Part shown: in pieces, positions 10,783-36,004 of the stretch | How positions within the stretch are numbered: the first letter of the stretch is position 1 | Layout: every line of letters starts with the position of its first letter | Origin: Candidatus Chloroploca sp. Khr17 | Lineage (GTDB): Bacteria; Chloroflexota; Chloroflexia; Chloroflexales; Chloroflexaceae | Reading direction: 5' to 3' | Assembly (NCBI RefSeq): GCF_004138165.1 | Contig: NZ_RYFF01000038.1 | Coordinates: 1-53,285 of the forward strand | Length of the DNA stretch: 53,285 nucleotides | The notes under the pieces: model-generated | Told to the model about the DNA's origin: nothing | Database searches by the model: none | The model's input: the letters and a program-made list of their open reading frames with translations, nothing else | Made by a program: the position numbers and the translations under genes

Positions 10783-10797
10783 CACCTTCTCCTCTTG

Positions 10798-12030: not shown

Positions 12031-12048
12031 TTTAATCCTGGTATAGTA

Positions 12049-12213
12049 TCACACGGTCAACCACTCAATGCGATCAACCCACTCTTCAGCTTCGCTAGCC
12101 TCCCAGTACAGGGCGAGTTCCTCCACCAATACGCCGATGGGCACGTGCTTTCGCACGATAAAAATCCCCCAATGCAGCCCACCCGCCGCAGCAATGAGAA
12201 AACGCAGTTTCAT
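12049..12213 (-). pseudogene. Internally deleted DUF5615-type PIN-like toxin
   Basis: A 54-residue frame starts MKLRFLIAAAGG, matching the MKLRFLIDAN start of DUF5615 toxins. It then jumps to a C-terminal-type segment GIFIVRKHVPIGVLVEEL ... EEWVDRIEWL. The middle of a normal protein of roughly 110-120 residues, with most acidic catalytic positions, is missing, and the first Asp is changed to Ala. The start overlaps the stop of the DUF433 gene by ATGA, the classic antitoxin-toxin coupling. The antitoxin has therefore outlived its toxin. Family assignment of the ends is by recognition and should be checked by profile search. Confidence 0.62.
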
Positions 12214-12563: not shown

Positions 12564-12574
12564 AAGGATATCCC

Positions 12575-12631
12575 TCACACACGTATTTTCATCAGCTCAA
12601 TAAACCGCGAATTATTGAGTTTTATCATCAT
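12575..12631 (-). pseudogene. Truncated EAD gene start (18 codons)
   Basis: The ATG at 12631 overlaps the CHAT stop (ATGA) and opens an 18-residue frame reading IKLNNSRFIEL, like the TIQLTNPQFIEL start of EAD-iSTAND. It ends at a TGA just before the DUF433 gene. A matching stretch upstream of the iSTAND gene (about 11868-11925) repeats both this start and the VDDFWQQKQ tail of an EAD. The DUF433 cassette therefore lies between two diverged copies of the same gene junction. Confidence 0.55.
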
Positions 12632-14328: not shown

Positions 14329-14369
14329 CGTTTGCTTCAGAACTCACCTACGAATGAGGATATGCCGAA

Positions 14370-14379
14370 AGTATAACAT
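14370..14379 (-). promoter_or_regulatory. Extended -10 promoter of the CHAT operon
   Basis: On the minus strand the sequence ATGTTATACT gives an extended -10 (TG-T-TATACT) about 40 bases upstream of the CHAT start. The identical ten bases occur upstream of cas10 at 36005-36014. No good -35 is visible. Confidence 0.5.
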
Positions 14380-14415
14380 ATCAGATCGGTTTGGCCCATG
14401 TATGGGGATCGTCCA

Positions 14416-14424
14416 TGCTATAAT
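14416..14424 (+). promoter_or_regulatory. Extended -10 promoter of the caspase gene
   Basis: TGCTATAAT (14416-14424) is a perfect extended -10, about 42 bases before the caspase ATG at 14466. It is divergent from the CHAT promoter about 40 bases away, so both protease genes share a short control region. Confidence 0.6.
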
Positions 14425-14465
14425 TCTGCTGCTGTTTGCTGTCAATTGAACGAGGAACCTTCGTT

Positions 14466-17218: not shown

Positions 17219-17255
17219 CCCAATGCCCCCCTGCGTGCGGGGCGTTGGGCGTCAC
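17219..17255 (-). repeat. Second, more decayed CRISPR-repeat relic
   Basis: The stretch ending TGCGGGGCGTTGGGCGTCAC at 17255 matches the 3' two-thirds of the array repeat with a one-base indel. It suggests that the array once extended further left. The rest of 17051-17405 holds no gene, only palindromic GTAGGGGC-type repeats. Confidence 0.45.
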
Positions 17256-17262
17256 CGCCAGA

Positions 17263-17405: not shown

Positions 17406-20400
17406 GTCGCGCCCGCCGGCGTTGCGGGGCGTTGGGCGTCACGCTCTTCGCGCTGCTGCCCATCCTGGCCGACGGCGGTCTCGACCCCCTGCTTTGCGGG
17501 GCGTTGGTCGTCACCTTCGCTGTCAGCAACGACACCAATCTACAGACCATGTCTCGACCCCCTGCTTTGCGGGGCGTTGGTCGTCACTCGGCTTCTGGGG
17601 CGAGTGGAGTAACCATTCTCCTTGTCTCGACCCCCTGCTTTGCGGGGCGTTGGTCGTCACCAACCTCCCCCGGGAGCAGAACCTGAGGGGACTGAGGTCT
17701 CGACCCCCTGCTTTGCGGGGCGTTGGTCGTCACGTATATCTGCTGATGCGTACGGTAGATTACCATTGTCTCGACCCCCTGCTTTGCGGGGCGTTGGTCG
17801 TCACTAAGCGTCGCCGACGGGTTGGTGGTGAATTGGAAAAGTCTCGACCCCCTGCTTTGCGGGGCGTTGGTCGTCACTCGCCTCACCGTCCGGTGAGATT
17901 ATTACCACCCGTGTCTCGACCCCCTGCTTTGCGGGGCGTTGGTCGTCACTAGCTAGCACGCCCAGAGCGGCACCGCCCCGTCGAGTCTCGACCCCCTGCT
18001 TTGCGGGGCGTTGGTCGTCACCAGATGAACCACATGGGCTATGGTATCAACCACTTTGTCTCGACCCCCTGCTTTGCGGGGCGTTGGTCGTCACCTTCGC
18101 TGGCTGTGAGTATCGCGACAATCTTCTCACGTCTCGACCCCCTGCTTTGCGGGGCGTTGGTCGTCACCACCTATACAAGAAAGTAGTCCTATTCATTCTT
18201 ATGGTCTCGACCCCCTGCTTTGCGGGGCGTTGGTCGTCACTCGTAGCGCTGGCCGAACTCGCAGAGGGAGGCGTTTGGTCTCGACCCCCTGCTTTGCGGG
18301 GCGTTGGTCGTCACGATGTTCTGCGAAGACTGTGGGAAGTGGCATGATTGTCTCGACCCCCTGCTTTGCGGGGCGTTGGTCGTCACACGCGTCAGTCTCC
18401 TGGTGGAGGGCAGAGCGTTGAGTCTCGACCCCCTGCTTTGCGGGGCGTTGGTCGTCACCGGAACGTACGCGTTTCTCGCGAAGGATGGGATAAGTCTCGA
18501 CCCCCTGCTTTGCGGGGCGTTGGTCGTCACAACCGCCCCCGCAGTCACCTCCACCAGGGGGTACTGCGTCTCGACCCCCTGCTTTGCGGGGCGTTGGTCG
18601 TCACTCGCCTATACCGTCTTTGTTTCTTTATCATGTTGTCTCGACCCCCTGCTTTGCGGGGCGTTGGTCGTCACAGGAGGAGAGCCTCTTCCCATCTTCC
18701 AGGACGCCGAGTCTCGACCCCCTGCTTTGCGGGGCGTTGGTCGTCACAGTTAAATGGTCGCCCGCATTCCCAGCTGCCGTCGGTGTCTCGACCCCCTGCT
18801 TTGCGGGGCGTTGGTCGTCACCCAGGACTATTTGAAGCTGTTCCAGAAAGTCTCCCCGTCTCGACCCCCTGCTTTGCGGGGCGTTGGTCGTCACCCTATC
18901 CGGAATCTCGGCGAGCTATCGAAAGTTAGTCTCGACCCCCTGCTTTGCGGGGCGTTGGTCGTCACATGATCAGCGTGCCCGTCTGGTCGAATGGCTGCGT
19001 GTCTCGACCCCCTGCTTTGCGGGGCGTTGGTCGTCACGACCATCCTGCTTGCGGCGGCGTGATGCCCGTCCAGGGTCTCGACCCCCTGCTTTGCGGGGCG
19101 TTGGTCGTCACAAAATTACCTGGATGCCCATGACCCGCCCGCGTTTTGTCTCGACCCCCTGCTTTGCGGGGCGTTGGTCGTCACGCTCCCGCTGAGCGTC
19201 GTCAGCAAGGTCGGGGTGGTGGTCTCGACCCCCTGCTTTGCGGGGCGTTGGTCGTCACTCGCCGCTCACCCCCGTTAACGCAACCTCGCTCCAGGGTCTC
19301 GACCCCCTGCTTTGCGGGGCGTTGGTCGTCACTACACCGCCGACCGTGCCATCCTTGGCCCACCACTGGTCTCGACCCCCTGCTTTGCGGGGCGTTGGTC
19401 GTCACGTGGGCCTCGACCTCGTGAACAACGGCCGCGCCCTGCGTCTCGACCCCCTGCTTTGCGGGGCGTTGGTCGTCACCTAAGACCACCAACACCCAGG
19501 GCGTGATTCTGCCGTGTCTCGACCCCCTGCTTTGCGGGGCGTTGGTCGTCACCGACGCCGACACCGCCGCCGACACCGACACCTTCAAGTCTCGACCCCC
19601 TGCTTTGCGGGGCGTTGGTCGTCACACCGACGGCAACGCGCAAGCGTACATCCGTCGCAAGTCTCGACCCCCTGCTTTGCGGGGCGTTGGTCGTCACGCA
19701 GTCGATTCTATCCCGCCCGCCGCCGCCGCTCGTGTCTCGACCCCCTGCTTTGCGGGGCGTTGGTCGTCACAAGGCGCACCTGCATCCGCAGGAGCGCCTT
19801 TCTTGGTGTCTCGACCCCCTGCTTTGCGGGGCGTTGGTCGTCACGAGCGGCAACTTCGCCCGTTGGGCCTCATACACTAGTCTCGACCCCCTGCTTTGCG
19901 GGGCGTTGGTCGTCACGGGGGAGCCGTGGCGGCAGGGGGCGGTCTACTTCCTGTCTCGACCCCCTGCTTTGCGGGGCGTTGGTCGTCACACATCATCAAG
20001 AAGGACGGCGCTATTCTCCAGAAGAGTCTCGACCCCCTGCTTTGCGGGGCGTTGGTCGTCACTGAGATGGACGCAAACTGTCCGGAGGAGATAAATTGTC
20101 TCGACCCCCTGCTTTGCGGGGCGTTGGTCGTCACCGTCAACACATATCATCGCTACCTCGAGCGCCGGGTGTCTCGACCCCCTGCTTTGCGGGGCGTTGG
20201 TCGTCACTCGCATGTTCGCGTTTTTCATGGCCCTGTTCGTTCTGTCTCGACCCCCTGCTTTGCGGGGCGTTGGTCGTCACTCCCCCAGTATCGAAAGGTA
20301 GAACCCACATGAATCGGTGTCTCGACCCCCTGCTTTGCGGGGCGTTGGTCGTCACTTTTGCAGTCTACTACGGCTGGAAGGCCGTGGTCTGTCTCGACCC

Positions 20401-23400
20401 CCTGCTTTGCGGGGCGTTGGTCGTCACTGCAACTGTGAGCGAGACGAAACAGGTCAAGACGGTGTCTCGACCCCCTGCTTTGCGGGGCGTTGGTCGTCAC
20501 TCCAGCGGAACCGGGGAGTTCTGTTGGACGGGAACCGAGTCTCGACCCCCTGCTTTGCGGGGCGTTGGTCGTCACAAGGACACTGCCTTGGAGACGCAGA
20601 AGCAGGTCAAGGTCTCGACCCCCTGCTTTGCGGGGCGTTGGTCGTCACCTAGGACCCTTGTTCTACGTCATGATCAGTTGGTTGGTCTCGACCCCCTGCT
20701 TTGCGGGGCGTTGGTCGTCACGAGACCACCGCCGTCCCACCGACGGCGGAGATCGTGTCTCGACCCCCTGCTTTGCGGGGCGTTGGTCGTCACCTTGACG
20801 CTTGGAAGCGTGTTTGCCCCGTCAAGAAGGTCTCGACCCCCTGCTTTGCGGGGCGTTGGTCGTCACTGGAGCAGCTAGGCACGCCGCCATGATGTATAAA
20901 AACAGTCTCGACCCCCTGCTTTGCGGGGCGTTGGTCGTCACAAGATCGGCGGCGCGTTGGTCAAGGTACGCGGCCCAGGGTCTCGACCCCCTGCTTTGCG
21001 GGGCGTTGGTCGTCACCCTCGTCCAGTTCGTCATCTCGATGACCCGTCTTGAGTCTCGACCCCCTGCTTTGCGGGGCGTTGGTCGTCACACACGAGAGTT
21101 CCCCGTGGTGCGTCAAGGCCTCTTGGTCTCGACCCCCTGCTTTGCGGGGCGTTGGTCGTCACGCTCGTCAATGCTGTGGCCTGCGGCCAGGTAGTCGTGT
21201 CTCGACCCCCTGCTTTGCGGGGCGTTGGTCGTCACCCTCCCCCACCACCGACGGCAACGCCCGAACCGACGGGTCTCGACCCCCTGCTTTGCGGGGCGTT
21301 GGTCGTCACGGATCCCCACCAATGAGAACGGGCAGCCGCTCGAGTCTCGACCCCCTGCTTTGCGGGGCGTTGGTCGTCACCATCACCAACTTCACCACAA
21401 CCAACCTCTCGTTCATGTCTCGACCCCCTGCTTTGCGGGGCGTTGGTCGTCACCGCCGACGGCCTCGCCGACGGCCTCGCCGACGGCCAGTCTCGACCCC
21501 CTGCTTTGCGGGGCGTTGGTCGTCACGGAATGGCAAAGTGGATTTACCTACCAGACAGAGGGTCGTCTCGACCCCCTGCTTTGCGGGGCGTTGGTCGTCA
21601 CCAGTCACTGGTGATGGCATCATGATGTGCCGTTATGTCTCGACCCCCTGCTTTGCGGGGCGTTGGTCGTCACCCGCCCGCTGTGACGAGCACGCCCGAG
21701 CCGCCTGTTGGTCTCGACCCCCTGCTTTGCGGGGCGTTGGTCGTCACAACCGTGCTGGCCGACGTCGACGGACCACGCCAAGGTGTCTCGACCCCCTGCT
21801 TTGCGGGGCGTTGGTCGTCACCGTTCAGCACCACCGAGCAGCCCGTCACGAAGACGTGTCTCGACCCCCTGCTTTGCGGGGCGTTGGTCGTCACCCCCAA
21901 CGACGTGGTGGGTGGAGGGTTACATAGACGTCTCGACCCCCTGCTTTGCGGGGCGTTGGTCGTCACCTGGCGACCCTGCTCGCCAGCGTCCTCCACGTCC
22001 CCGTCTCGACCCCCTGCTTTGCGGGGCGTTGGTCGTCACACACCGTAATATCGCCCTCCCCATCCCGCTGACGTGGTCTCGACCCCCTGCTTTGCGGGGC
22101 GTTGGTCGTCACAAGCAACCCACGAAAGAGAATAGCCACGGATTACCTTGTCTCGACCCCCTGCTTTGCGGGGCGTTGGTCGTCACACCATTGTGAACAC
22201 GCAGTGGAGCCAGGCAGAGCTGCTGTCTCGACCCCCTGCTTTGCGGGGCGTTGGTCGTCACTGATCGACGGCTTCACCGGCGACCTGCGGTGGAACGGGT
22301 CTCGACCCCCTGCTTTGCGGGGCGTTGGTCGTCACACCATCATATCCGGATTCCGCCTGGCTTTCGCCTGGTCTCGACCCCCTGCTTTGCGGGGCGTTGG
22401 TCGTCACGCCTTGTTGTCAGCGGAAACCAGCCGGTGCTCTAGTCTCGACCCCCTGCTTTGCGGGGCGTTGGTCGTCACAAAAGATGGCTCCACTCAGTAT
22501 CGCTATGCTTTCCGTGTCTCGACCCCCTGCTTTGCGGGGCGTTGGTCGTCACGCGTGCTGAATCGGCTGGAGGTGCCCTCGCAGGTTGAGTCTCGACCCC
22601 CTGCTTTGCGGGGCGTTGGTCGTCACGCCTCGCGGTTCCCCTGGCGCATGGCCCGCGCTAGGTCTCGACCCCCTGCTTTGCGGGGCGTTGGTCGTCACCC
22701 AGGGCGTGCCATCAACAAAGCCGTAGCGCAGCGCGTCTCGACCCCCTGCTTTGCGGGGCGTTGGTCGTCACATCATCTGTGCAAGCGCCAGCACCCAGTC
22801 CACCTTGTCTCGACCCCCTGCTTTGCGGGGCGTTGGTCGTCACCAGCACGTCCCACATGTGCGCTGGGAGTCGCTGCATGTGTCTCGACCCCCTGCTTTG
22901 CGGGGCGTTGGTCGTCACCTGAGCAAGGCGTATCAGGAGGTTTGGAATGGTTCAAAGTCTCGACCCCCTGCTTTGCGGGGCGTTGGTCGTCACCCGCGTG
23001 CTGAGCTACATCGAAATCGACCTTCCACAAGTCTCGACCCCCTGCTTTGCGGGGCGTTGGTCGTCACTGTAATCAACATCCGCATCCAGCGGTGAGAGAC
23101 TTCGTCTCGACCCCCTGCTTTGCGGGGCGTTGGTCGTCACCTTGACCTGCACCCCAGAGAACCTCATATCGGTTCATCCGTCTCGACCCCCTGCTTTGCG
23201 GGGCGTTGGTCGTCACTAAGGAGTTACCTCATGAACCGCAAACCGCTCGTGTCTCGACCCCCTGCTTTGCGGGGCGTTGGTCGTCACCCCCGCACGCCGC
23301 CGCGCCTGCGGGACAACAGCCCACGGGTCTCGACCCCCTGCTTTGCGGGGCGTTGGTCGTCACACTGGGGCCGCACGGACATGTTCTATGACCCCGAAGT

Positions 23401-23652
23401 CTCGACCCCCTGCTTTGCGGGGCGTTGGTCGTCACGTGGACATCCCCCTGTACGTCAGCTCGCCGACCTCGTCTCGACCCCCTGCTTTGCGGGGCGTTGG
23501 TCGTCACTCGAGGTCTCGGTCGTCCAGCAATCGTCGGCGCCCAGTCTCGACCCCCTGCTTTGCGGGGCGTTGGTCGTCACCTACCAATGGAGGCCTCGGA
23601 ACTGCTCCAGTCTATGTCTCGACCCCCTGCTTTGCGGGGCGTTGGTCGTCAC
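17406..23652 (-). CRISPR. CRISPR array, 37-nt repeat, 85 canonical plus one degenerate repeat
   Basis: I counted 85 canonical repeats (first 17478-17514, last 23616-23652) at a period of about 73 bases, with 84 spacers of 34-38 nt. One degenerate repeat at 17406-17442 (31 of 37 bases matching) adds a 35-nt spacer. On the plus strand the repeat begins GTCTCGACCCCC and ends GTTGGTCGTCAC. CGACC pairs with GGTCG and CCCC with GGGG, giving a strong hairpin. Transcription is assigned to the minus strand for three reasons: the 3' eight bases there, GTCGAGAC, resemble the ATTGAAAC crRNA handle; the degenerate repeats lie at the left end; and several spacers carry sense-oriented gene starts on the plus strand. 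The cas genes lie upstream in that direction. All canonical repeats look identical. Confidence 0.98.
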
Positions 23653-23778
23653 TGGGTCGCATCCCGGCCATCTGGCGTTTATGGCGTTGGAGTGGATTTT
23701 ACCGGGGTTGACCAACAGCTTACCTTTCTGTTGTCAATGTGCCAAATGGGTTGATTCTGTGGTTTACCCTGCGCTTGA
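23653..23778 (-). promoter_or_regulatory. Probable CRISPR leader
   Basis: 126 bases separate the last repeat from the cas6 stop. The stretch is more AT-rich than its surroundings and includes TTGACA and a TAAAAT on the minus strand, though their spacing (30 bases) is too long for one promoter. Its place between cas6 and the leader-proximal repeat makes it the leader if transcription runs leftward. Confidence 0.5.
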
Positions 23779-24798
23779 CTACATTTTAGCTGGTGGTTGG
23801 TGGTTGTGCAAGGGCAAGTCGCTGATTGCGCTGATGTCGATGACCCCGTTGCCAAAGACGCAGGCTTTGCCTATCTGGATGATGCTCGCTGCGACCAGCA
23901 GGGTGCGGAGGTCACGTGGTACGTCGTGCAAGATGACGCTGCCTACCAAGCCCCCCAGGTGCATGCGCTGCCGCCCGTGTCGCCCATCCGATTGACGCTC
24001 ACGATCTTCCCAACGAACGTGTTCGCGCTCAAGCTTGATCACCCGGGCAGCCTCGGCGAGTTCGTGATGGTTCACGCCCCACGCGCCCCCGCCATGAAAG
24101 AGGGCGAGCGTGTCGAGCCGCCACGCGGTGGCACGTATGATAGCGGGGAGGTCGATGCGTTCCATCAGGTGCCCGCGACTCTTGATGCGCAAGGGACTCG
24201 CGATGGTCAATTGCAGCGTGTCTGGTAGTTCACTGGCCCGTGCGCTGATCGCTGGCCCGTCGATGGACGGCATGGTTGATGGTGTGATCAGACGCCCGTC
24301 TTGATAGATGACCGGGCCGGTTGGACGCCACGGTTCCAACGCTTCGACCCGTTCGAGACGCGCCGGGGTCCGGGCCGCACCAAGCCCGCGCTCACCCAGA
24401 TGGGCAAACCCGAAGAGAAAAAAGGGGAGATAGTCAATCCCGCGCCCCAGCAGGGTAACCTGAAATTCCAGGGCTTCCCCGGCTCGATAGGTGGTTCGTT
24501 CATCGGTTCCTAGCCGTACGACAAACGGGCGCGGCACATCCTGCAAGTCGTGGAGTTCCGCCACTTCTGGTGGGTGCGGGGTCGCAAAGACCCATCGGTA
24601 CGGGCAAATGATCGGGGCCTCGCACGCGTGCGCGTTGCCCCAACAGGCCGCCGGACACGTCGCCCGCTGAAAGGCGTAGCCAAATCCGCCACGCAAGAGG
24701 CTGCCTTTGAAGGCAGGGAGGCGCGCATCCCCCAGCAGGCGCATGGTCAACCGTAGACGCACCATCTCAAGTTGCGGGAGGATCACTCTTGGCTCCAT
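23779..24798 (-). CDS. cas6: Cas6 pre-crRNA endoribonuclease
   Basis: 339 residues from the start MEPRVILPQL at 24798. A longer frame begins at 24837, but its first codons contain the TATAAT of the promoter, so the shorter start is chosen. The fold is the double ferredoxin-like RAMP type. The C-terminal block GGLVGSVILHDVPRDLRTLL ... GKACVFGNGVI is the hallmark Gly-rich end of the Cas6 family; N-terminal LRGGFGYAFQ and a Cys-rich CPAACWGNAHACEAPIICPY segment are also typical. Cas6 cuts each repeat to leave an 8-nt 5' handle. It sits immediately upstream of the leader and array, apart from the effector operon. A catalytic His could not be fixed. Confidence 0.9.
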   Translation of the reverse strand: MEPRVILPQLEMVRLRLTMRLLGDARLPAFKGSLLRGGFGYAFQRATCPAACWGNAHACEAPIICPYRWVFATPHPPEVAELHDLQDVPRPFVVRLGTDERTTYRAGEALEFQVTLLGRGIDYLPFFLFGFAHLGERGLGAARTPARLERVEALEPWRPTGPVIYQDGRLITPSTMPSIDGPAISARASELPDTLQLTIASPLRIKSRGHLMERIDLPAIIRATAWRLDTLALFHGGGAWGVNHHELAEAARVIKLEREHVRWEDRERQSDGRHGRQRMHLGGLVGSVILHDVPRDLRTLLVAASIIQIGKACVFGNGVIDISAISDLPLHNHQPPAKM

Positions 24799-24828
24799 CC
24801 GTTCTGCCGCTTCGCAAATGTTTTTGAT

Positions 24829-24868
24829 ATTATACACACTTGACGTTCGTTTGCGCAGGCGCTATCGT
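24829..24868. promoter_or_regulatory. Back-to-back promoters for cas6 (minus) and the SAVED gene (plus)
   Basis: A perfect TATAAT on the minus strand (24829-24834) faces cas6. On the plus strand TTGACG (24840-24845), a 17-base spacer and TATCGT (24863-24868) form a promoter for the SAVED gene. The two elements are 5 bases apart, so both promoters share DNA and probably regulation. The SAVED transcript would have a leader of about 215 bases with no recognised structure. Confidence 0.6.
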
Positions 24869-25089: not shown

Positions 25090-27240
25090 ATGACCAGAAC
25101 ACATGCGTTTGATGCGGTCTATCGTCTTGCTAGTCATACCTATGGCTCGCACCATTTTGGCACTGCATTTGGGTGCTATGCTGATGCTGACGGCCTCTAT
25201 CTGCTCACCTCGGCTCAGATCGTAGCTACGCTGGGTGGCCCAGATGCGTTGCGGATTGGCGATCAGCACCCCGAGGTGATCGCGCTGTCTTCACGCAGTG
25301 TGCGCGATCTTGCCGTTCTGCGCCTGAAGCTTCCAGCCACGCAGGCGATCTTGCCGCTGGCCCCAGATCCGTTGGTGGCTGCGCACGGGCTTGCGGTTGA
25401 GATTCCTGGCTATGCCGTGCTCAATCCATCAACGTGTCTGCGCAGCAAGCTTGCGGCCCGGTTGCACGATGAGGCGACGCTGGAGGCGCTGCATGATCAC
25501 GACCGGGTGCGCGTGTGGCGTGTCCAGCTTGACCAGGCACCATTCACCTCAAGCCTTGTGGGTGCTCCGGTCATTGATGCAGCCCGTGGGTATGTGATCG
25601 GTATGGTGATCCAGGCGCACGATACGGGTCAGGCTCTGGCGATCAAGCTTGATGAGCTTCGCCATGTCTGGAGCGACGCTCCCGCGCTGCTCTGGCAGCA
25701 GCCACCGCTTGCGTTGCGTGGTGATGAGCTCGGGTCGCCCCATGCTGAAGCTCGCTCAAGCGAACGACTCGCCCAGGCTGCCCACGCCCTCGAACAGCAA
25801 GCGCGTGACCTCACTCCGCCAGACACGCATGATCAGTTGGCGCACCTGACCCGGTTGCTCCTGGCTGAGATCAGCCGGAAGGCCCACCCCGAGCCCCCCT
25901 CGTACCTGGGCATTTCGCCTGACCTGGCCGAAGTTATCCAGTTGTTAGCAGGCAAAACGCTCGCCACTGCCGAGGCCTCCCTGAACTTTGGTCGTGACAA
26001 TCAGTATGGTGAGGTGACCGTTGGGGATATCGCGGGGCGCGATCTGATCAAGTTTTATCTGACGATGCATGAGGCCCCTTCACCCCAAGCGACCCCGCCG
26101 CCAACACCGCTCGCCGTCCCCGTCCAGGTCTATCTGAGCAGCGAGGCCCCGCAGAGTCCGCACCTCCAGACGCTCAGGCATCACCTGGCCCTCCGTGGTG
26201 TGATGGTCTGGCCCGACGAACAGGGCACGATCCTCAACGCGACCGCGCACCGAGCACACCTGGCGGCCAGCGTCGCTGCGTTGCTGCATCTGGATCAGGC
26301 CCGCCTGGACGATGAGGCGCTTGCTGACGAAGGTGCGCGGCTGCGTGAACGCCACACGCACGATGCCGTCTTTCCCATTGGCGTCGTGCTTGATGGCATC
26401 AATCAGGCCGCCGTCAGAAAGACCGGGCTACGTCTGCATGATTATTGCCAGTTTATGCAGCCATATCCATCGGAGACCGGCCCTACGCTGCCGCAGAAGA
26501 TCCTCAAGGCGGCGATGCAGGCCTACCCAGAGCGGTTTGCGCACCAAGAGACCATTGAGCTCAGTCTGTTTACCTTTCCCGCAAGCGGCACTGGTCGGCA
26601 CGCACCCTTGCAACTCAACTGGCAAGCCGCTTTTCAGCCGTTTCCTTCCGAAGCAGCGTGGCGCGATCAATTGCTGCCCGCCCTCAACGATCTCCGTGAG
26701 TGTCTGGGCGAGGCAGGGATCCGGGCCATCAAATGCTATCCGCAGGCCCGGCTTTCGGCAATGGTCGCGTTTGGCTACATCTTCCGCGAGCCGACGAAGA
26801 TCAAGCTCTGGATCAATCAGCATGATGAGTGGTGGCCAACCCAGACCTACACCACCCAGCATGGCCCGGCGCTCATCACCACGCAGGCCGGTGATCCCGC
26901 AGGGCGCGATCTCACCATCGAGGTTTCGGTCAATGCCGATGTCACCAACGATGTGAGCGCCTACCTGAAACAAGCGCCGCTGCCCCTTGCCTGCCGTGTC
27001 AGCCTCAAGCTCCCGCCGGGCACCCAACTCGACAGCGACGCGGCCCACGCAATCGCCTGCCAGGTACGCGCCGCGATCCACCAGTACCGCCCGGTCAATG
27101 GCACGACCCATCTTTTCGGGGCGATGCCGGCTGGCCTGGCCGCGCTGATTGGTTGGCACCTGAATGCCCGCGAGCCGGTGCAATGCTACGAACTCGAGCG
27201 AGGCGTAGGCTATCGCAAGGCATGTCTGCTGACGGGGTGA
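25090..27240 (+). CDS. Pseudo-trypsin / TIR-like / SAVED fusion: candidate type III CRISPR effector
   Basis: 716 residues; ATG at 25090 with GGAGG 6 bases upstream. Residues about 15-200 have the trypsin-like pattern, but the His of LTxAHxV is Q43 (LLTSAQIV) and the Ser of SGxPV is V157 (LVGAPV). D73 (VRDLAVL) remains, so it should be proteolytically dead. Residues about 270-325 hold a GDIAGRD motif seen next to conflict-system adaptor regions. Residues about 343-500 (VQVYLSSEAPQSPHLQTL, GVMVWPDE) are TIR-like, without a catalytic Glu I can assign. Residues about 505-716 are SAVED-like (HLFGAMPAGLAALIGWHL, PVQCYELERG), resembling the C-terminus of the EAD-SAVED protein. It lies between cas6 and the Cas10 operon. 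SAVED binds cyclic oligonucleotides in known systems, so activation by Cas10 products is a reasonable inference. Confidence 0.8.
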   Translation: MTRTHAFDAVYRLASHTYGSHHFGTAFGCYADADGLYLLTSAQIVATLGGPDALRIGDQHPEVIALSSRSVRDLAVLRLKLPATQAILPLAPDPLVAAHGLAVEIPGYAVLNPSTCLRSKLAARLHDEATLEALHDHDRVRVWRVQLDQAPFTSSLVGAPVIDAARGYVIGMVIQAHDTGQALAIKLDELRHVWSDAPALLWQQPPLALRGDELGSPHAEARSSERLAQAAHALEQQARDLTPPDTHDQLAHLTRLLLAEISRKAHPEPPSYLGISPDLAEVIQLLAGKTLATAEASLNFGRDNQYGEVTVGDIAGRDLIKFYLTMHEAPSPQATPPPTPLAVPVQVYLSSEAPQSPHLQTLRHHLALRGVMVWPDEQGTILNATAHRAHLAASVAALLHLDQARLDDEALADEGARLRERHTHDAVFPIGVVLDGINQAAVRKTGLRLHDYCQFMQPYPSETGPTLPQKILKAAMQAYPERFAHQETIELSLFTFPASGTGRHAPLQLNWQAAFQPFPSEAAWRDQLLPALNDLRECLGEAGIRAIKCYPQARLSAMVAFGYIFREPTKIKLWINQHDEWWPTQTYTTQHGPALITTQAGDPAGRDLTIEVSVNADVTNDVSAYLKQAPLPLACRVSLKLPPGTQLDSDAAHAIACQVRAAIHQYRPVNGTTHLFGAMPAGLAALIGWHLNAREPVQCYELERGVGYRKACLLTG

Positions 27241-27313: not shown

Positions 27314-29341
27314 TTAGCACGGACGGGGCAGCACCCGTCGTTCTTTGTATTCGTTCTCGTCATCGCCAAGACGGGGCGTCTCTGTGCGCTCGATTTCCAT
27401 ATAGCGCGTCTGGCGCGCGACGTCCTGTGGGCCAGGCCAGGCGAGCAGGGCGAGCAAGCACTGCATGCGCAACGTATCTTTGAGCAGGCCACTGGCTGGA
27501 CGTTGCTCACCGCTCTGGCTGAGCACATAGTCATTAAAGGCCGTGAGGCACCGCTCCTGAAGCCTGGTGATCACGCGCTCAGCTTTGACACCCGTCTCCC
27601 ACGCCAGCCCCGTTGCTTCATGCGCAAAGAGGTGCTGATAGCGATCGGTGGGTTCATGTAGTTGCAGCACAGAGGCCAGGCTGATCGCCCCTAGCCCCAG
27701 CGGTTTGCCCATGCCCAGCTTGAGCCGGTACTGCTTGCCGTGAAAGCCCTTTTCGTGCGCGAGGTGCAAAACCCAGAGCACGGCCCCGAGTTCGACATCC
27801 GTCAGATTCTCGATATGGATCGTGAAGGTAAAGCGGGTTCCTGGCTTGACCGGGCGGATGAGGGTTTTCTGGGTATCTGACGTTGCCTCGTCTTCCGCCG
27901 CAGACATCTGCCAGGCAGGTTGCTGGCCCTTGTGCCAATAGAGCTTATGCCCTCGCACGACGGTCTCTTCGCCCGGCGCACTGGCATAATGGCGCAACGC
28001 CTGCTTGCGGGCATCGGGTTGCACCAGATAATGCTGGAAGGTGGTCGGCTTGGGACTCGCCAGCACATGGGGCATAGCGGCCTCGGCAAACACATCGTGC
28101 TGGCCGGGTTCCAGCAGGGCATCACGCACAAAGATCCGTCCGGCGCGCACCTGCACCTCATCCTGGCGCTTGGTTTCACGCACAAACCCAAAGATCGCCT
28201 CGGCCAGATCGCAATCCTCGGCACGTCGCAGCGCGGCTGGCACAAAATCACGTGGAGTCGCCGCACGGTCAAAACCCGGCGGGCGGTACGGGAGGCGAAA
28301 GTTGGGATTGTGACCAAAATAGATGACCCGACTCCCTCCAGGTGGCTCACAATAAAAGATGGGCCGTTCGACGATCAGTGCGCCCCATTCCGGATCGAAC
28401 GGTGGATCTTTTTGAAAGGTGGTGAGACCCGTGCGATAGTCAGCAATGGCCTGTGGGTCGATCTCGAGGCGCTTGTTGGTCGTCGCCACCGGCACAATCA
28501 CATGAGCTTTGCGGGGCGAGGCTGATGTTCTGCCCGCGTCGTCGGCTGTTTCAAGCATATTGCCGCCTGAGACTAGCACCCCATCCTGTCCGCCACGCAT
28601 GCTCCCTCGCGAACCAAGCTGAACGATCATGATCCCATTTTCGCCTGGTTTGATCGTAAAGCTACACGGAATATATTGCGGTTGGAAGCCAGGATCATCA
28701 AACCGTTTGAAGCCAGGCAGGTTCGGAATAAGGGCCTCGCCCGTCTGTAAATGATATTCTTTGATTTTGATGAACGATCTGCCGTTGAGTGGTTGCACGG
28801 GACGGATGTACCACTGCGAGCCGTCTCGTTCGACATAGCCTGCCCGTACCTTCTTGCCAAGCTTGCCCATGATCGCATCGTACTTTGAGCCAAGCGGATC
28901 ATCACCTGGTGCGGCGACCGCACGAAAGAAGTAGCGAGGCTTATCCGTCACCCGTTCCATCTTGCCATAGCCCGCGATTTCGACCAGGCTCCGCAACATC
29001 CCCCGCAGGCTACTGCCAGGAATCACCGGCTGCTCGGCCTGCCCGAGGTTGAAAAAGGCCGCACGCTGCTGCCGTTCTTCCGGCGACAACTGCTCAAAGC
29101 CTTTTTTTGCCAGTTCAGCATAGGCGTCGGGGGTAAAACCACACCGCACATAGAGCGGCGACTCCGTGGTCAGCGTACACGTGATCGTGCCCGTATGGCG
29201 CTCAGTGTGATAGACATCGTGCCGCTCGGGGGCTTCGGCAGGCACAATCTTTGCCGGCAGGGGCACGAAGTTGTAGGGTGCAATGGCGGTGCGCGGGGGT
29301 GCGATCTCCGCTGCCTGTGGCGGCCATGGGGATTTTGTCAT
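27314..29341 (-). CDS. TIGR03986-family RAMP protein (type III-D)
   Basis: 675 residues from ATG 29341, with AAGGAAA upstream; the frame extends to 29431 inside the previous gene without support. The N-terminal PYNFVPLPAKIVP and the RAMP signature VIPGSSLRGMLRSLVEI are typical of the TIGR03986 family. A C-terminal Gly-rich block (KLGMGKPLGLGAI) matches Cas7-like backbone subunits. These large proteins are part of III-D effector complexes, forming the crRNA-bound filament. It is last in the cas operon, 16 bases after csx19. A Csm3-type cleavage Asp could not be assigned with confidence. Confidence 0.85.
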   Translation of the reverse strand: MTKSPWPPQAAEIAPPRTAIAPYNFVPLPAKIVPAEAPERHDVYHTERHTGTITCTLTTESPLYVRCGFTPDAYAELAKKGFEQLSPEERQQRAAFFNLGQAEQPVIPGSSLRGMLRSLVEIAGYGKMERVTDKPRYFFRAVAAPGDDPLGSKYDAIMGKLGKKVRAGYVERDGSQWYIRPVQPLNGRSFIKIKEYHLQTGEALIPNLPGFKRFDDPGFQPQYIPCSFTIKPGENGIMIVQLGSRGSMRGGQDGVLVSGGNMLETADDAGRTSASPRKAHVIVPVATTNKRLEIDPQAIADYRTGLTTFQKDPPFDPEWGALIVERPIFYCEPPGGSRVIYFGHNPNFRLPYRPPGFDRAATPRDFVPAALRRAEDCDLAEAIFGFVRETKRQDEVQVRAGRIFVRDALLEPGQHDVFAEAAMPHVLASPKPTTFQHYLVQPDARKQALRHYASAPGEETVVRGHKLYWHKGQQPAWQMSAAEDEATSDTQKTLIRPVKPGTRFTFTIHIENLTDVELGAVLWVLHLAHEKGFHGKQYRLKLGMGKPLGLGAISLASVLQLHEPTDRYQHLFAHEATGLAWETGVKAERVITRLQERCLTAFNDYVLSQSGEQRPASGLLKDTLRMQCLLALLAWPGPQDVARQTRYMEIERTETPRLGDDENEYKERRVLPRPC

Positions 29342-29357
29342 CGGGGTTTCCTTCTTC

Positions 29358-30068
29358 CTAGTCGGCCTCGACCACTGCTGCCAGCCGACTGGCGCTGATC
29401 TGGTACATGCCGGTGTCGTTGTCTTGCCCAAGATAGTGCCGTACCCACAGCTTGGCGCGCGCTGTTTCGGTTGGTGCCCGCGTCAGCGGCGGGGCATGCA
29501 CGATGCCCTGCGTGCCTTCGACGAGGGTGATGAAGCCATCATGGGTGTCGCTGCCCCACCCCCAGAGCCAGTGCCTTTCGTCGAGGCACCACGTCTGCGC
29601 GTCGGTCGCGTCGGTCGCGTCCGTCACCGGGGCATCAAGCCAGAGGCGGGCCTGCAAACCGCATTGACTGGTAATGGTGGTGCCTGGCTTGCCCGGGCCA
29701 CGCCAGAGGAAGAGTTCGCCATGTTCGCTGAAGAGCCGACACTGCTGCAGGCTGGTCGGGTCAAGCCGCAACGCGGCCTGGGCGCGTGCCGGGCATGCGA
29801 GATGCAACTGGGGTGCGGGCGCTTGCCTGGGCGCAAAGAGTCTCTTCAACAAGCCTGGTGCCGCAGCAGGGGTGGGTTGCCGTACTTCACCCCAGATGAC
29901 GCCATCATCATCGTGGGCCAGCAGCCAGCGTAGGTTGTGCGTGATCGCCTGTTGAACGAGCCATGGGGTCAGGTTATGCGCTGGCACCACCGGGTAGGTG
30001 GTGGGCAGACGGCGGATTTGACCGAGCGGGCGGTGGTAGGCTGGTTGGGTTGGTGCGACCTGGGTCAT
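29358..30068 (-). CDS. csx19: Csx19 (TIGR03984 family)
   Basis: 236 residues. The C-terminal motif LVEGTQGIVHAPPL and the WLWGWGSDTHDGF region fit the Csx19/TIGR03984 family, found almost only in III-D loci. Its role in the complex is not well established. It begins 3 bases after the stop of the double-Cas7 gene, so it is translationally linked. An Asp/Ala/Thr run (DATDATDA) in the middle is a local low-complexity insertion. Confidence 0.8.
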   Translation of the reverse strand: MTQVAPTQPAYHRPLGQIRRLPTTYPVVPAHNLTPWLVQQAITHNLRWLLAHDDDGVIWGEVRQPTPAAAPGLLKRLFAPRQAPAPQLHLACPARAQAALRLDPTSLQQCRLFSEHGELFLWRGPGKPGTTITSQCGLQARLWLDAPVTDATDATDAQTWCLDERHWLWGWGSDTHDGFITLVEGTQGIVHAPPLTRAPTETARAKLWVRHYLGQDNDTGMYQISASRLAAVVEAD

Positions 30069-30071: not shown

Positions 30072-31739
30072 TTATGCCTCCAGATAGGTGCGCAACGCGT
30101 TGACATAGGTTTCGAGACCCTCGTGTGCCTTCTTTTTGCCATGGCCTGCAACCTGTTCGAGCTTCAGCCCGGTTAGTCGTGCCGCAGGCTCGGCCCCGAT
30201 CGCGGTGAGTTCCCAGATGCGCCCATCGTCGGCAGTGAGCGTCGCAGCGCGTCCAGCGAGCCGCCCGCGCCCGATGCTGCTGGTGCCTCCCAGCGGAAGG
30301 TCGCTGGTCCAGAGGTCTTTGAGCAACAAGAGCAGCAGCCCGATCTGGGCGTGCTGCGCCTGGTGCTGGGCCTGTTGCCTGGCCGCACTCCCCTGCAACG
30401 CATCCAGGCGGAGCGTCAACCGCAGGGCGATATCCCCACCAACGTGGGGTGCCTCGGCAAAGAGCGCCGTATCATAGGCGCCACCGGTGAAGCGGTCAAT
30501 GGCAACCCGGTTTTGCACCAGGAACGCCCCCTTGGTGATCGGCGTCTCTTCGACGATCAGGCGACTCGCCGTGGGTTGGGGTGGCTCGGTGACCCCTTTG
30601 GGGCGCTCGCGGTGCATGTCGTTGCCAAACATAGCGTCGAGCAAGGCGTTTGCCTGCGCAGACGGCGGCCAGTGCAGGGTATGGACGATGCGCGTGGCGC
30701 GGGCGCGCAGCACCCCGGCCAGGCTGGTGCCAGGGATGACCGGAGCCTCGTGCTGCGGGCGCGGATCATCAGGACGATACGAGCGCAGGTGCGCCACATC
30801 GGGCTGCTCGGCATCGGGCTGCTCGCCTGTCAGGGCCAAGGGATCAGTCGTGCGAATCAGGATCGGGCTGGCGAGATCGAAGGTCGCGTGGATCTGGAAA
30901 CGGCGGCGTGCGTCGGGCAGCGGGGCCGATGGCAGCGCGGCCTCGGGGCCAAAGATCGCATTGGCACCGCCGTGCCAACGGGCAGTTGGCGGCACGCCCC
31001 AAGGTGCATGGCTGGCGGTTCCCGAGGCCACCTGGCCCGGTGGATCGCGCAGGTCGTAGGCGTTCGCCGTGACCCAGGCCACCAGGCCCGATGGATCGTG
31101 CAGGTCGTAGAACGTGTAACGCCACTGCGCCACCCGACACCGTCCGAAGCCACGTGAACGACGGGCACCGAGGGCGATCGCCCCGGCGTCGTGTGGGGCA
31201 TCAGCCATCAAGCCTTGCAAGGCCAGCGCGAGCGCCTGCCGCAACCGACGCGCTGGTTCTTCGGCTGCCGGCAAGAGTAATTCCAGGCGCAGCGGAAAGC
31301 ACGTCCCAGCCGGCAAGAGTTCGAGGTCATACTTCTTTTTCTCATCCGCCGTGCGCGTCGCACCGTCAATCTTCACCCCGTCCCGCACCTCGAAGAGCCG
31401 AGTGGATGGCAGCGACCCGTAGGCATCATCAACGATCAACGGGCTCTGTTCGCCCTGATCATCGCCTTTGAGACTGCCAAAGAGCTGCACGGCCAGGGTT
31501 GTGGGATCGCGTTCAGCAAGCCCATAACCACGCTCATAGCTGGCAAGGTAGCCACGCAACGCCCCGGCAAGCGACGTGCCGGTCAACAGGGGCTGCTGAT
31601 CAACCGGGTCAAGCAGCAACGGCATGGCCGTGATGCTCTCGGCGTCGCCGTTGCCGAGGTGGGCTGGCGTCACCAAAACCAGATCGCCCTCAACAACCAG
31701 GCGGGCCGCAATCGCTCGTGACCTGAATGCGTCAGCCAT
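30072..31739 (-). CDS. Double Cas7-like RAMP (Csm3-Csm3 fusion)
   Basis: 555 residues with two RAMP modules. Module 1 has LLTGTSLAGALRGYLASYERG (near residue 52) and module 2 VIPGTSLAGVLRARATRI (near residue 335). Each has a Gly-rich C-terminal block: GARRSRGFGRC and GGTSSIGRGRL. The loop TPAHLGNGDAES in module 1 places an acidic residue where Csm3 carries its RNA-cleaving Asp, so at least this module may cut target RNA. Fused Cas7 units are typical of III-D and of its relative III-E. Two near-repeated segments (DLHDPSGLVAWVTANAY / DLRDPPGQVASGTASHA) between modules show a local duplication. The start overlaps the csx10 end by 8 bases. Confidence 0.85.
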   Translation of the reverse strand: MADAFRSRAIAARLVVEGDLVLVTPAHLGNGDAESITAMPLLLDPVDQQPLLTGTSLAGALRGYLASYERGYGLAERDPTTLAVQLFGSLKGDDQGEQSPLIVDDAYGSLPSTRLFEVRDGVKIDGATRTADEKKKYDLELLPAGTCFPLRLELLLPAAEEPARRLRQALALALQGLMADAPHDAGAIALGARRSRGFGRCRVAQWRYTFYDLHDPSGLVAWVTANAYDLRDPPGQVASGTASHAPWGVPPTARWHGGANAIFGPEAALPSAPLPDARRRFQIHATFDLASPILIRTTDPLALTGEQPDAEQPDVAHLRSYRPDDPRPQHEAPVIPGTSLAGVLRARATRIVHTLHWPPSAQANALLDAMFGNDMHRERPKGVTEPPQPTASRLIVEETPITKGAFLVQNRVAIDRFTGGAYDTALFAEAPHVGGDIALRLTLRLDALQGSAARQQAQHQAQHAQIGLLLLLLKDLWTSDLPLGGTSSIGRGRLAGRAATLTADDGRIWELTAIGAEPAARLTGLKLEQVAGHGKKKAHEGLETYVNALRTYLEA

Positions 31740-33432
31740 GTGTCACCTCCGTAGGCGTGGTGCGCAGCGTCTTGCGACGCTGGACTGGGGCGACCAGCAC
31801 GGCCGCCAGGAGCCGCAGCGTCGCGGCACGCGCCTGGGCCTCGGTCGGTTCGACCGAGACGGCGGCAACCGCGATCTGCTTCACCGCACCCAACTCCGGC
31901 CAGACTCGTGCTGGCTCCTGCAACAGACGCTCAATCCACGCGGCCAGCGTCTCGGTGCGGTGCGCCAGGTGCGCACGTTCATAGCCAGTGCGGGCGAAGG
32001 GACGGAAGCCCGCAAATTCACGGGCGACCATGGCGGTATCACCGGTCGCCTGGGCCCGACGCACCAGCACCCGTAGGCGGGCCAACTGGCTATTGCTGGG
32101 CAGCAGCCCGGGTGCATCCGTCTCGGCGTCAATGCTCGGCCAGACATGGCGCTGCACAAAGGCAATGATGGCCTGGTCAACCTCGCGCTCAAAGAGGCGG
32201 CGGGTCATCGTTGCGGCCAGGGCCTGGTCAGTCGGGGGCAGGTTGAGCGTGGCGCCCTGCCCGGTCTCAGGCGCGGCAGATTGCGCCGGGCTGCGCTTGC
32301 CCTCAACTTCCACGGCCTGATAGGTCGGCGCATCCAACCAGTTAAACACAAGCCGCCCATACCCCTCGCTGCGCCGCTCGCCAATCCCCGCCCATTCCAG
32401 GGCGGCCCGATCGAGCGTCCCGGCCTCGAGGGTAAAGCCAATCACACTGCCAGCGGCCAGCGCTCGCTCCTGGTTCACCGGCAACTGCCAGGTACGATTA
32501 AAGCCGCCAACCATCGTGGTGTGCAGCACCGTACGCGCGGGATCAAGGCGGACCTCGGCACCAAGATAGGCCGCAAGCGTCGCATCATCAAGGAGCTCGA
32601 CCAGATTGCCCTCGGCATCACGCAGCAGCGTATCGCTCAGCAGGGTCAGGGTCTGCTGCCGCGCAGGTGGCTGCGGCAGCGCGGGCGTTTCGGACCAGTC
32701 GTTCTTCACGCCTTCCACCTGAAGGCGCACCTTGCCATAGGTTGCACTGCGCGAGCGCCCGAGCCAGGCCGTGTCGGACGAGGCGAGCAACTGCGCGATC
32801 GCCTGTGCATCAGCCGCCGCATCGCACACCACCACCCCCGCGAACCACTGGCCCGCCTCCAGGGCTTCGTAGCGAAAGACGGTGCCAGCGGGGGTCTCGG
32901 TCGCGTCCATTTCCTTGCGCTCGATCCAGGCGCGTCCTTTGACCCGGTCGCGTTGCACGTGGATCGCCAGCGTACGTTCGGGTTCCAGCAGCAGGAGTTC
33001 ATCCGCTGCCAGGGCACAGAATGGCCGTTTCACGGGTATCCAGCGCCCTTCGCGGCGGGCCACAGACGCGCCAGGCTTTGCGGGGGCTGTCGCTTCCGTG
33101 GGCCGGGCGCTCGCAAGCGTGACGACAAAGCGCGGCCCCGTCTCATCTTTGGCCTGCTGCAGCGCACGGGGTGTCGGGAGTGTCCGCACACCAGCGCGCG
33201 TCATCGGATAGGCGTGCAGATAGCGCACCGCCCCACTCAGAAAGAGGCGCTGAAAGGTCGCATCACCCGCACCACTGGCTTGCCGCTGACGTTGCAGATA
33301 GCGCTGCACAAACAGACCCCGCAGCGTACTGCCAGGAAGATAGGCGTAGGTCACCATGCTATTCGGATCGCCCACCAGACTGGTCACCAGCACTGGCTGC
33401 TCCAGGTAGAGATGGTAGATCAGCGCGTTCAT
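31732..33432 (-). CDS. csx10: Csx10 (Cas5-group RAMP, type III-D signature)
   Basis: 566 residues. The N-terminus LIYHLYLEQPVLVTSLVGDP followed by YLPGSTLRGLFVQRYL is diagnostic of Csx10, the Cas5-like subunit that caps the crRNA 5' handle in III-D complexes. A Gly-rich block GIGERRSEGYGRLVFNW near residue 360 is the second RAMP signature. The rest (about 420-566) is helical. Its ATG overlaps the stop of the Cas7-like gene (ATGA). This gene and csx19 fix the subtype. Confidence 0.9.
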   Translation of the reverse strand: MNALIYHLYLEQPVLVTSLVGDPNSMVTYAYLPGSTLRGLFVQRYLQRQRQASGAGDATFQRLFLSGAVRYLHAYPMTRAGVRTLPTPRALQQAKDETGPRFVVTLASARPTEATAPAKPGASVARREGRWIPVKRPFCALAADELLLLEPERTLAIHVQRDRVKGRAWIERKEMDATETPAGTVFRYEALEAGQWFAGVVVCDAAADAQAIAQLLASSDTAWLGRSRSATYGKVRLQVEGVKNDWSETPALPQPPARQQTLTLLSDTLLRDAEGNLVELLDDATLAAYLGAEVRLDPARTVLHTTMVGGFNRTWQLPVNQERALAAGSVIGFTLEAGTLDRAALEWAGIGERRSEGYGRLVFNWLDAPTYQAVEVEGKRSPAQSAAPETGQGATLNLPPTDQALAATMTRRLFEREVDQAIIAFVQRHVWPSIDAETDAPGLLPSNSQLARLRVLVRRAQATGDTAMVAREFAGFRPFARTGYERAHLAHRTETLAAWIERLLQEPARVWPELGAVKQIAVAAVSVEPTEAQARAATLRLLAAVLVAPVQRRKTLRTTPTEVTHG

Positions 33433-34124
33433 GAGTACCCCTCCAGTGCGACCCCAAGCTTGTGGGCAAAATGCGCCACCTGCGTTTTGGTAAACGTCGC
33501 ATCAGTATAAGCCGCAGGAAGGTCTGCGTGCAGCAACATCTGCAACCGCCCGCGCCCGCGATTGCGCCCGGTACCGCCACGCCGCACCGCCAGCACACAG
33601 GCCGCCAGCAGGGCCAGCGCATCGGCATCGGGCGGCGTCGCACAGTCGAGGCGCGCAATCAACGGCGTATCCCGCAGCAGCACGCGCATCGTGCGCAACG
33701 AACCCTGCTCAGGTGCGCCCGTCGCCGCATTGACCGCCGTCTGGCGTCGCAGGCTCGTCAGCGCATCAAGCACATCCTCACGACGCATCTCGCCCGCGCG
33801 AACCTGCGCGTGCAGCGCTGCCCGCAACGCAGGGGGCAGCAGTGCGGGGCCAATATGCACCTGGGCGGTGCCTGTCGTCGTCGCCCCACTGACCCCAAAC
33901 AACCAGGTCGAGGCGGCAGTCCACGGCTGCCAGCGCTCCTCACCCAGCGCAAACCGCAGGTTGACCGCCTCTTCAAGCAGCAACCCTTTCAACGCCCGCC
34001 CGCCAAGCAACGGACAGCCGGCCTCATCGTGATCGATCTCACGATCAACCAGACCGGGCACCCCATCGCCCCGGCCAAACGTCGCCTCGCTCGCCAGCGC
34101 GATGCTCAGATAATAGACCGTCAT
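33429..34124 (-). CDS. Cas7-like RAMP (Csm3-type)
   Basis: 231 residues from ATG 34124, which overlaps the cas10 stop by ATGA. The upstream in-frame extension to 34175 is inside cas10 and discarded. The segment FGRGDGVPGLVDREIDHDEAG carries acidic residues at the position of the Csm3 RNase Asp, followed by PLLGGRALKGLLLEE, the RAMP Gly motif. The C-terminal GGTGRNRGRGRL is the Gly-rich loop. It is likely a catalytic backbone subunit that cleaves target RNA at 6-nt intervals (family knowledge). Confidence 0.87.
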   Translation of the reverse strand: MTVYYLSIALASEATFGRGDGVPGLVDREIDHDEAGCPLLGGRALKGLLLEEAVNLRFALGEERWQPWTAASTWLFGVSGATTTGTAQVHIGPALLPPALRAALHAQVRAGEMRREDVLDALTSLRRQTAVNAATGAPEQGSLRTMRVLLRDTPLIARLDCATPPDADALALLAACVLAVRRGGTGRNRGRGRLQMLLHADLPAAYTDATFTKTQVAHFAHKLGVALEGYS

Positions 34125-35878: not shown

Positions 35879-36004
35879 ACCGATCCTTCCTACCTGCCCC
35901 CAAACGCATGGGGAGCCACCCCAACAAGCGCCAGGGAGCCACGACATACCGCCCAAGAAAGGAGTGACGCGAAGATGCTCAAGCGTAGCGACGAAGATAG
36001 GGAT

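Follow-up and report, generated by a model that had tools for sequence, protein, structure and literature searches.

Codon phase points to a coding-strand preference among the spacers of a type III-D CRISPR array in Candidatus Chloroploca

A 53,285-nucleotide (nt) stretch of the genome of Candidatus Chloroploca sp. Khr17 (Chloroflexota; contig NZ_RYFF01000038.1, positions 1 to 53,285), referred to here as the window, contains an array of clustered regularly interspaced short palindromic repeats (CRISPR) that is assigned by the genes beside it to a type III-D locus. The spacers of this array lie preferentially with their coding sense on the plus strand, whereas the CRISPR RNAs (crRNAs) are predicted to be made from the minus strand and would therefore be complementary to any target that reads in sense on the plus strand. 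We consider it probable that the crRNAs of the array are mostly antisense to messenger RNAs (mRNAs) of invaders, with about three quarters of the spacers coding-sense on the plus strand. The spacers may have been supplied in trans by a module of reverse transcriptase (RT) and Cas1. One spacer, S80, matches a single-stranded RNA (ssRNA) phage over part of its length.

Results

Orientation of the array

The coordinates of the array, its leader and the surrounding genes are listed in Table 1. The left end of the array is leader-distal, because the repeat at that end is degenerate. One additional spacer (17443-17477) adjoins the degenerate repeat and was excluded from all counts. At the opposite end, a sigma-70-like promoter on the minus strand points into the array; a promoter scan matched this site with the -35 hexamer offset by one (TGCACA, spacer of 16), where 0.1 matches are expected from shuffled sequences. 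The minus-strand repeat terminates in GTCGAGAC, the crRNA tag, which we take to be like the usual tag of type III systems. The degenerate repeat, the promoter-like site and the tag all indicate that the crRNAs are made from the minus strand.

Spacers are preferentially coding on the plus strand

Each spacer was scored by codon likelihood in three frames per strand. The score is symmetric when there is no bias, and random sign flips therefore provide the test. Under a codon model pooled from four phages with 57-64% GC content, 52 of the 84 spacers scored positive for the plus strand, and the maximum-likelihood fraction of plus-coding spacers was 0.72 [0.56-0.86] (sign-flip p=0.0031). The four models obtained by leaving out one phage gave p=0.001-0.008. 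The initial annotation of the window had proposed, from five spacers with translation-start-like sequences, that the crRNAs are complementary to messages; the preferential coding sense of the plus strand bears this out, and two further arrays agree. The signal does not depend on the five spacers, since p was 0.0027 after they had been dropped, and it was 0.008 without six linker-like spacers. A base-composition artefact was considered and rejected, as a phase-free composition score gave p=0.94 and the residual phase signal p=0.0007. When the array was divided into thirds from the leader-distal to the leader-proximal end, the central third carried the strongest bias (p=0.09, 0.004 and 0.24, in that order).

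Several results weigh against the coding-strand preference. A codon model built from 196 open reading frames (ORFs) of the host placed 48 of 84 spacers on the plus strand (fraction 0.59 [0.43-0.75], p=0.05), which is weak support. Host codon usage is a weak predictor of strand, because it was right on only 55-70% of 36-mers from phages; the pooled phage model was right on 72-77% of those from the left-out phage. One of the four single-phage models gave p=0.07 (the others 0.009, 0.0007 and <0.0001), and a model built from lambda and T7 gave p=0.16 when applied to the window's array together with the type III-B array C93 of the same genome. It might be argued from these values that there is no true bias and that the plus-strand motifs were noticed by chance. 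The counts of start-like sites are equal between the strands at the 4-nt level (see below), spacer S81 has the wrong orientation, and S40 is called to the other strand. This explanation is nevertheless highly improbable given the p of 0.003 under the phage model, its persistence without the named spacers, and a p of about 1e-5 in two arrays that had not been used before.

Control and replication arrays

The window's array (C142) was compared with arrays C93, C86, C96, C146a, C146b and C69 of the same genome and with C8 and C128 of Ca. Chloroploca mongolica (genome G001). Intervals outside 25-50 nt, including a 2.2-kb gap in G001 C8, and exact duplicates of spacers were left out of these other arrays. 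The type I-D array C96, which is accompanied by Cas3, Csc1-3, Cas4 and Cas1, exhibited no significant bias, with 39 of 78 unique spacers positive (fraction 0.51, p=0.23). Three arrays associated with an ordinary Cas1 (C146a, C146b and C69) had 47 of 83 positive (0.58 [0.42-0.73]). G001 C8, which shares the repeat of C93, reached 43 of 70 under the phage model (0.79 [0.61-0.93]). Arrays C86 and G001 C128 were fetched only after these results and form a replication set. They contained 33/52 and 54/82 unique positive spacers, together 87/134, corresponding to a fraction of 0.77 [0.65-0.87] and p of about 1e-5 under the phage model. The five arrays that we refer to as RT-linked (C142, C93, C86, G001 C8 and G001 C128) together had 188 of 296 spacers positive (0.76 [0.68-0.84]), and they differed from the I-D array (p=0.012) and from the ordinary-Cas1 arrays (p=0.005).

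These comparisons also have results that speak against the preference or its restriction to RT-linked arrays. The host model detected no bias in G001 C8 (35/70) or C86 (24/52), and it called 49/82 spacers of G001 C128 positive. Two single-phage models brought the I-D control to p=0.08 and 0.10. Comparison of the window's array alone with the I-D array gave p=0.10. The 162 RT-linked spacers available before the two new arrays differed from the ordinary-Cas1 spacers with p=0.006, and under the lambda and T7 model the values were p=0.23 against the ordinary-Cas1 arrays and p=0.10 against the I-D array, so the contrasts between RT-linked and control arrays depend on the model. The contrast with the ordinary-Cas1 arrays is also confounded by the lower GC content of the C146a spacers (0.505 versus 0.593). 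The term RT-linked has an uneven basis: C93 adjoins the RT gene, C86 and both G001 arrays share its repeat, and the window's array is linked by its leader alone.

Two features of these arrays were recorded separately. C146 constitutes another III-D locus; it has a Cas1 of its own, a pair of neighbouring arrays with differing repeats, and a DUF499 anti-phage-like gene. G001 C8 is interrupted at 3206-5360 by an ORF of about 580 residues, transposase-like by eye, with array sequence on both sides.

Leader similarity suggests supply by a reverse transcriptase-Cas1 module

None of the four cas1 hits of the genome is located on the contig of the window. At C93 (L020:3450-6376), an ORF resembling the RT of group II introns (RVT_1) overlaps a Cas1 ORF (Cas_Cas1), and an RNase H-like ORF (RVT_3) and III-B effector genes adjoin, so that the genome contains an RT beside cas1. 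Around the promoter, at a nearly equal offset from the array, the leaders of C142 and C93 agree in 31 of 37 nt, and across the leader-repeat junction they agree in 14 of 15. G001 C128 carries the C93 leader. Because the III-D array shares these leader elements with an array adjacent to RT and Cas1, the similarity suggests that one RT-Cas1 machine may serve both C142 and C93, and that the window's array would be supplied in trans. RT modules have been proposed to act in trans with type III systems (PMC5513706, seen in part).

Alternatively, the ordinary Cas1 of another locus could load the array with DNA-derived spacers in either orientation, without RT, and selection during infections alone would leave the coding-strand spacers. 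A selection-driven bias was reported for Thermus type III systems lacking RT (available sections of PMC7515739), and the ordinary-Cas1 arrays of this genome lean the same way, though not significantly. The leaders of C146a and C69, however, form a separate family (92% identical over 150 nt) with no match to the C142 leader, and that of C96 belongs to a third. The spacers of C146a and C69 are also longer, with modes of 40 and 38 nt compared with 36 nt in C142. We regard filling by an ordinary Cas1 as unlikely and prefer supply by the RT-Cas1 module.

Translation starts occur at an ordinary rate

The coordinates and letters of the five spacers named in the initial annotation (S80, S76, S40, S37 and S13) were correct. 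It had described ribosome-binding sites in four of them, most with an ATG, and this description holds in part. S80 contains a good start-like site. The site in S76 may be internal to a gene, because the codons CAG GAG GTT of its open frame LSKAYQEVWNGS yield the apparent Shine-Dalgarno (SD) sequence. The strand of S40 is disfavoured by the phage codon model, and in S37 no ATG follows the GGAGGAG.

Starts were counted as an ATG 3-12 nt downstream of a stretch of the SD consensus, on each strand of the 84 spacers, and compared with shuffled spacers. With at least 4 nt of SD consensus, 5 of 84 spacers qualified on either strand (shuffles 4.2 for plus and 6.7 for minus). With at least 5 nt, there were three on the plus and two on the minus strand (1.0 and 1.75), and 9.5% of 200 shuffles reached three. 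Excesses on the plus strand appeared when ATG, GTG and TTG were allowed with at least 5 nt (9 versus 3.35 in shuffles, 0/200 reaching 9; minus strand 6 versus 5.5) and for ATG with 6 nt (2 versus 0.3, 1/40 reaching it; minus strand 0). The excess was gone for ATG or GTG with 5 nt (plus 3 versus 2.4; minus 6 versus 4.0). When 36-mers were drawn at random from six phages, on the main sense strand, ATG sites numbered 7.75, 2.8 and 1.0 per 84 at 4, 5 and 6 nt, respectively. Among the 296 unique RT-linked spacers, ATG with 6 nt occurred five times on the sense strand (shuffles 0.8, 0/40) and never on the other; the phages predict 3.5 and 1.1, respectively. ATG starts on the plus strand are thus not clearly enriched, because sampling of phage coding strands yields similar rates. 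Enrichment of start codons was therefore rejected on the ATG counts against phage sampling, even though the ATG/GTG/TTG count at 5 nt and the ATG count at 6 nt exceed shuffles. True starts are probably present among the spacers at an ordinary rate rather than as a special class of targets, and the proposal that starts are special or selected is not supported. The difference between the strands under the strictest criterion is in line with the coding-strand preference, but it involves few cases.

Some other spacers have recognisable plus-strand features. S33 (19771-19807) looks by eye like an intrinsic terminator in an mRNA-like orientation, with the hairpin AAGGCGC/GCGCCTT followed by TTTCTT. 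Pro/Thr-rich linkers resembling PTATPEPT are encoded on the plus strand of the spacers at 19553-19588, 21236-21272, 21454-21489 and 21674-21710.

Spacer S80 and single-stranded RNA phages

Nucleotides 2-25 of S80 are identical in 24 of 24 positions to a viral contig of 3377 nt (L060:2902-2925). Its proteins match phage RNA replicase (PF03431, E 1e-82) and the maturation protein (PF03863, E 2e-23), which identifies the contig as an ssRNA phage. At the same site of the replicase gene, S80 matches ESE029 (Brudgevirus) at 22 of 24 positions and SRR5466365_2 with a gap. In the replicase frame the site translates as KELPHEPQ, and a shift by one frame opens an ORF of 99 residues (L060:2915-3214). Of the first nine ssRNA phages of the Leviviricetes (leviviruses) inspected, eight have an ATG or GTG at the S80 site that opens a frame of 87-106 residues containing a hydrophobic segment (maximum over 19 residues 1.5-2.7); in further leviviruses anchored at the site, the overlapping frame has 53-93 residues. 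By its position and hydrophobicity the frame is possibly lysis-like. An overlapping frame, often beginning MNRN, recurs in the replicase genes of Brudgevirus- and Condavirus-like ssRNA phages (L062-L068), where it is unannotated in the records.

S80 may therefore derive from an ssRNA phage and have been captured by reverse transcription, in which case its start would be that of a lysis-like gene inside the replicase gene. We consider this origin possible, with somewhat less than an even chance. The identity to L060 and the conserved frame favour it; the 24-mer has no copy within two mismatches in the other 157 of the 158 genomes of the class, and the 14 phage records matched by five other spacers include no ssRNA phage. 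Nevertheless, a full-length protospacer of S80 was not found in an RNA phage, as the match covers 24 contiguous nt and 26 of 34 in all. Of the 17 leviviruses compared, the eight not anchored at the S80 site were left out of the comparison of the remaining tail; over the final 9 nt, S80 has a mean identity of only 15% with the nine anchored leviviruses, whereas the leviviruses agree mutually at 62% there. RT-Cas1 is reported to append non-coded nucleotides, about 4 nt and mostly purines (PMC11014452, in the sections available), and the 9-nt tail of S80, without purine bias, fits such an addition poorly. A chance match is conceivable with a 20-nt seed, a very large collection and three exact patterns tried. 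Against GenBank phages, the ssRNA hits of S80 reach only E 0.4, and 13 records of Klebsiella phages appear at E 4.

The remaining spacers do not reinforce the levivirus match. In comparisons with 9 and with 17 leviviral genomes, none of them exceeded the reversed controls, and leviviral peptides in the other spacers were in no clear excess over background strands, with S80 itself only tying for second. A spacer of G001 C128 matched L064 at 21 of 23 positions (E 0.001), which is no better than the best reversed control. According to the portions available to us, PMC5513706 detected no spacers from RNA phages, targeting of riboviruses by RT-associated type III systems is cited in those of PMC10847044, and spacers against Obelisk RNAs are reported in those of PMC13096302. 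No report of levivirus-matching spacers was found among the titles and abstract openings of the literature surveyed, which was not exhaustive. The levivirus match of S80 is a lead, not proof. The combined scenario, in which the Cas1-less III-D array would be loaded in trans from RNA by the III-B RT-Cas1, including S80 from the lysis-like start of an ssRNA phage, appears rather unlikely.

Protospacer searches

Usable protospacers are almost absent. Searches of GenBank phages returned 10 records at E<=0.4 (best 0.01), all of which involve S60 or the two repetitive spacers S30 and S56, and 160 records at E up to 10, of which 40 were inspected. S60 (21748-21784) matched five records of Caulobacter phages at 28 of 30 positions (E 0.1). 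Sixteen of the 20 plasmid records were on S30. Single searches with S76, S40, S13, S37 and S83 gave nothing better than E 0.5. Two of eight patterns were matched in viral contigs, those of the S13 peptide and of S80; the S83 core, S82, S67, S66, S76 and S40 had no match. The S13 peptide pattern led to a virus of AT-rich composition in which different DNA encodes the FCEDCGKW motif, which shows only that the motif occurs in another frame of this sort. At most four candidates per genome were scored in the genomes of relatives, so protospacers there may have been missed.

S81 is the sole spacer with a near-full-length match to an annotatable gene, and its crRNA has the sense of the mRNA, contrary to the general preference. 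Its targets are FGE-sulfatase-domain genes of the same genome (G000:C158:30783 and 34852), one with a NACHT domain, and both other genomes from the genus also contain matches. No pairing with RNA is expected for S81, because its crRNA has the same sense as the mRNA of these targets. Type III interference is reported to eliminate self-matching spacers that are antisense (PMC5576922, in the available part), which would account for the tolerance of S81. The FGE-sulfatase genes matched by S81 resemble targets of a diversity-generating retroelement. Retroelement systems of this type are the subject of PMC10907252.

S83 shares its target and orientation with two spacers of G001 C8, which it matches at 29 of 30 and 21 of 23 positions; one of the two lies beside a truncated repeat. 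The S83 pattern was matched in genome contigs only by this array of Ca. Chloroploca mongolica.

The type III-D locus and its surroundings

The assignment of the array to type III-D follows from the presence of Csx10 and Csx19, a Cas10 large subunit, and the array and Cas6 located beside the effector genes (Table 1). Proteins with EAD2, CHAT, caspase, iSTAND, SAVED, VWA, AAA and FGE-sulfatase domains are clustered beside the locus (3415-15632), and this cluster is likely a conflict-system island.

Table 1 Features of the III-D locus and selected spacers in the window
Feature	Position	Strand	Description
Further repeat remnant	17227-17256		left of the degenerate repeat
Degenerate leader-distal repeat	17406..17442	-	6 mismatches
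CRISPR array	17478..23652	-	85 identical repeats of 37 nt, separated by 84 spacers 33-39 nt long (mode 36)
Spacer S13	18315..18349	+	reads MFCEDCGKWHD; no SD inside the spacer
Spacer S37	20063..20097	+	GGAGGAG without a later ATG; open frame EMDANCPEEIN
Spacer S40	20281..20318	+	AAAGG...ATG; phage codon model favours the other strand, log-likelihood ratio -4.2
Spacer S76	22919..22956	+	AGGAGG-N6-ATG; also open coding-like frame LSKAYQEVWNGS, log-likelihood ratio +5.4
Spacer S80	23217..23250	+	TAAGGAG-N7-ATG, good start-like site
Spacer S81	23288..23326	+	own-genome FGE-sulfatase-domain genes, 38/39 and 37/39
Spacer S83	23436..23470	+	reads VDIPLYVSSPT; target and orientation in common with two G001 C8 spacers
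Leader-repeat junction	23653..23667	-	CCGGGATGCGACCCA
Leader side of array	23653..23852	-	likeness to the leader of the III-B array C93
Sigma-70-like promoter	23783..23811	-	TTGCAC-17-TAAAAT, points into the array
Cas6	23779..24837	-	PF10040, 4.8e-9
SAVED-domain protein, probable effector	25090..27240	+	carries a SAVED domain
Cas7-type RAMP fusion	27314..29431	-	TIGR03986, above cut-off
Csx19 (type III-D)	29358..30068	-	TIGR03984, above cut-off
Cas7-type RAMP, best model Csx7	30072..31739	-	below cut-off
Csx10 (type III-D, Cas5-type)	31732..33432	-	TIGR02674, E 1e-37, below curated cut-off
Predicted Cas10, second palm domain	34121..35956	-	PF22335 above cut-off; Cmr2 model below cut-off

Discussion

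Based on the codon phase of the spacers and the similarity of the leaders, a mechanism can be proposed. The RT and Cas1 module of the III-B locus would supply spacers to the III-D array in trans. The bias may combine a modest RT-dependent orientation at acquisition with the loss of useless spacers and the keeping of useful ones. The crRNAs would pair with the mRNA of an invader, since most spacers lie coding-sense on the plus strand, and start codons would enter the array at the rate of random sampling of phage coding strands. The initial annotation had suggested selection for spacers against transcripts; the strand bias that this implies is present, and either biased acquisition or selection could account for it.

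A strand bias of this sort is already known from type III systems. In the sections available to us, the survey of Vink 2021 (PMC8482600) gives an average of 65% of type III spacers on the coding strand and describes, as here, a coding-strand preference that lets crRNAs bind mRNA. The present estimate differs in being derived from codon phase without protospacers; it amounts to 72-76%, with intervals that include or nearly include 65%. The bias in Thermus was attributed to selection (PMC7515739), and a moderate RT-dependent antisense bias was described in PMC5576922. Arthrospira platensis, according to the portion of PMC5513706 available, combines a III-B system containing RT-Cas1 with a III-D system lacking RT in one genome; as in Ca. 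Chloroploca, most spacers were unmatched, and action in trans was proposed. Its III-B and III-D spacers, however, form separate pools of differing lengths, whereas the III-D and III-B arrays of Ca. Chloroploca have leader elements and the length of their spacers in common. The III-B RT-Cas1 system of Marinomonas mediterranea (PMC5576922 and PMC11014452, in part) likewise joins RT with Cas1 and a type III effector, and it tolerates sense-oriented spacers matching the host, as seen for S81. In Ca. Chloroploca, RT and Cas1 are separate overlapping ORFs accompanied by an RNase H-like ORF.

The strand preference confirms the picture rather than changing it, because it is expected for an RNA-targeting system. 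Two points go beyond this: codon phase reveals the bias even where protospacers are lacking, as seen in five arrays, and a single RT-Cas1 machine seems to serve two type III loci. The leader similarity and the match of S80 merit further attention. If S80 truly stems from an RNA phage, this would bear on the content of the memory kept by RT-containing CRISPR systems and on the hosts of environmental leviviruses: Chloroflexales would be levivirus hosts and would hold a natural CRISPR memory against an ssRNA phage.

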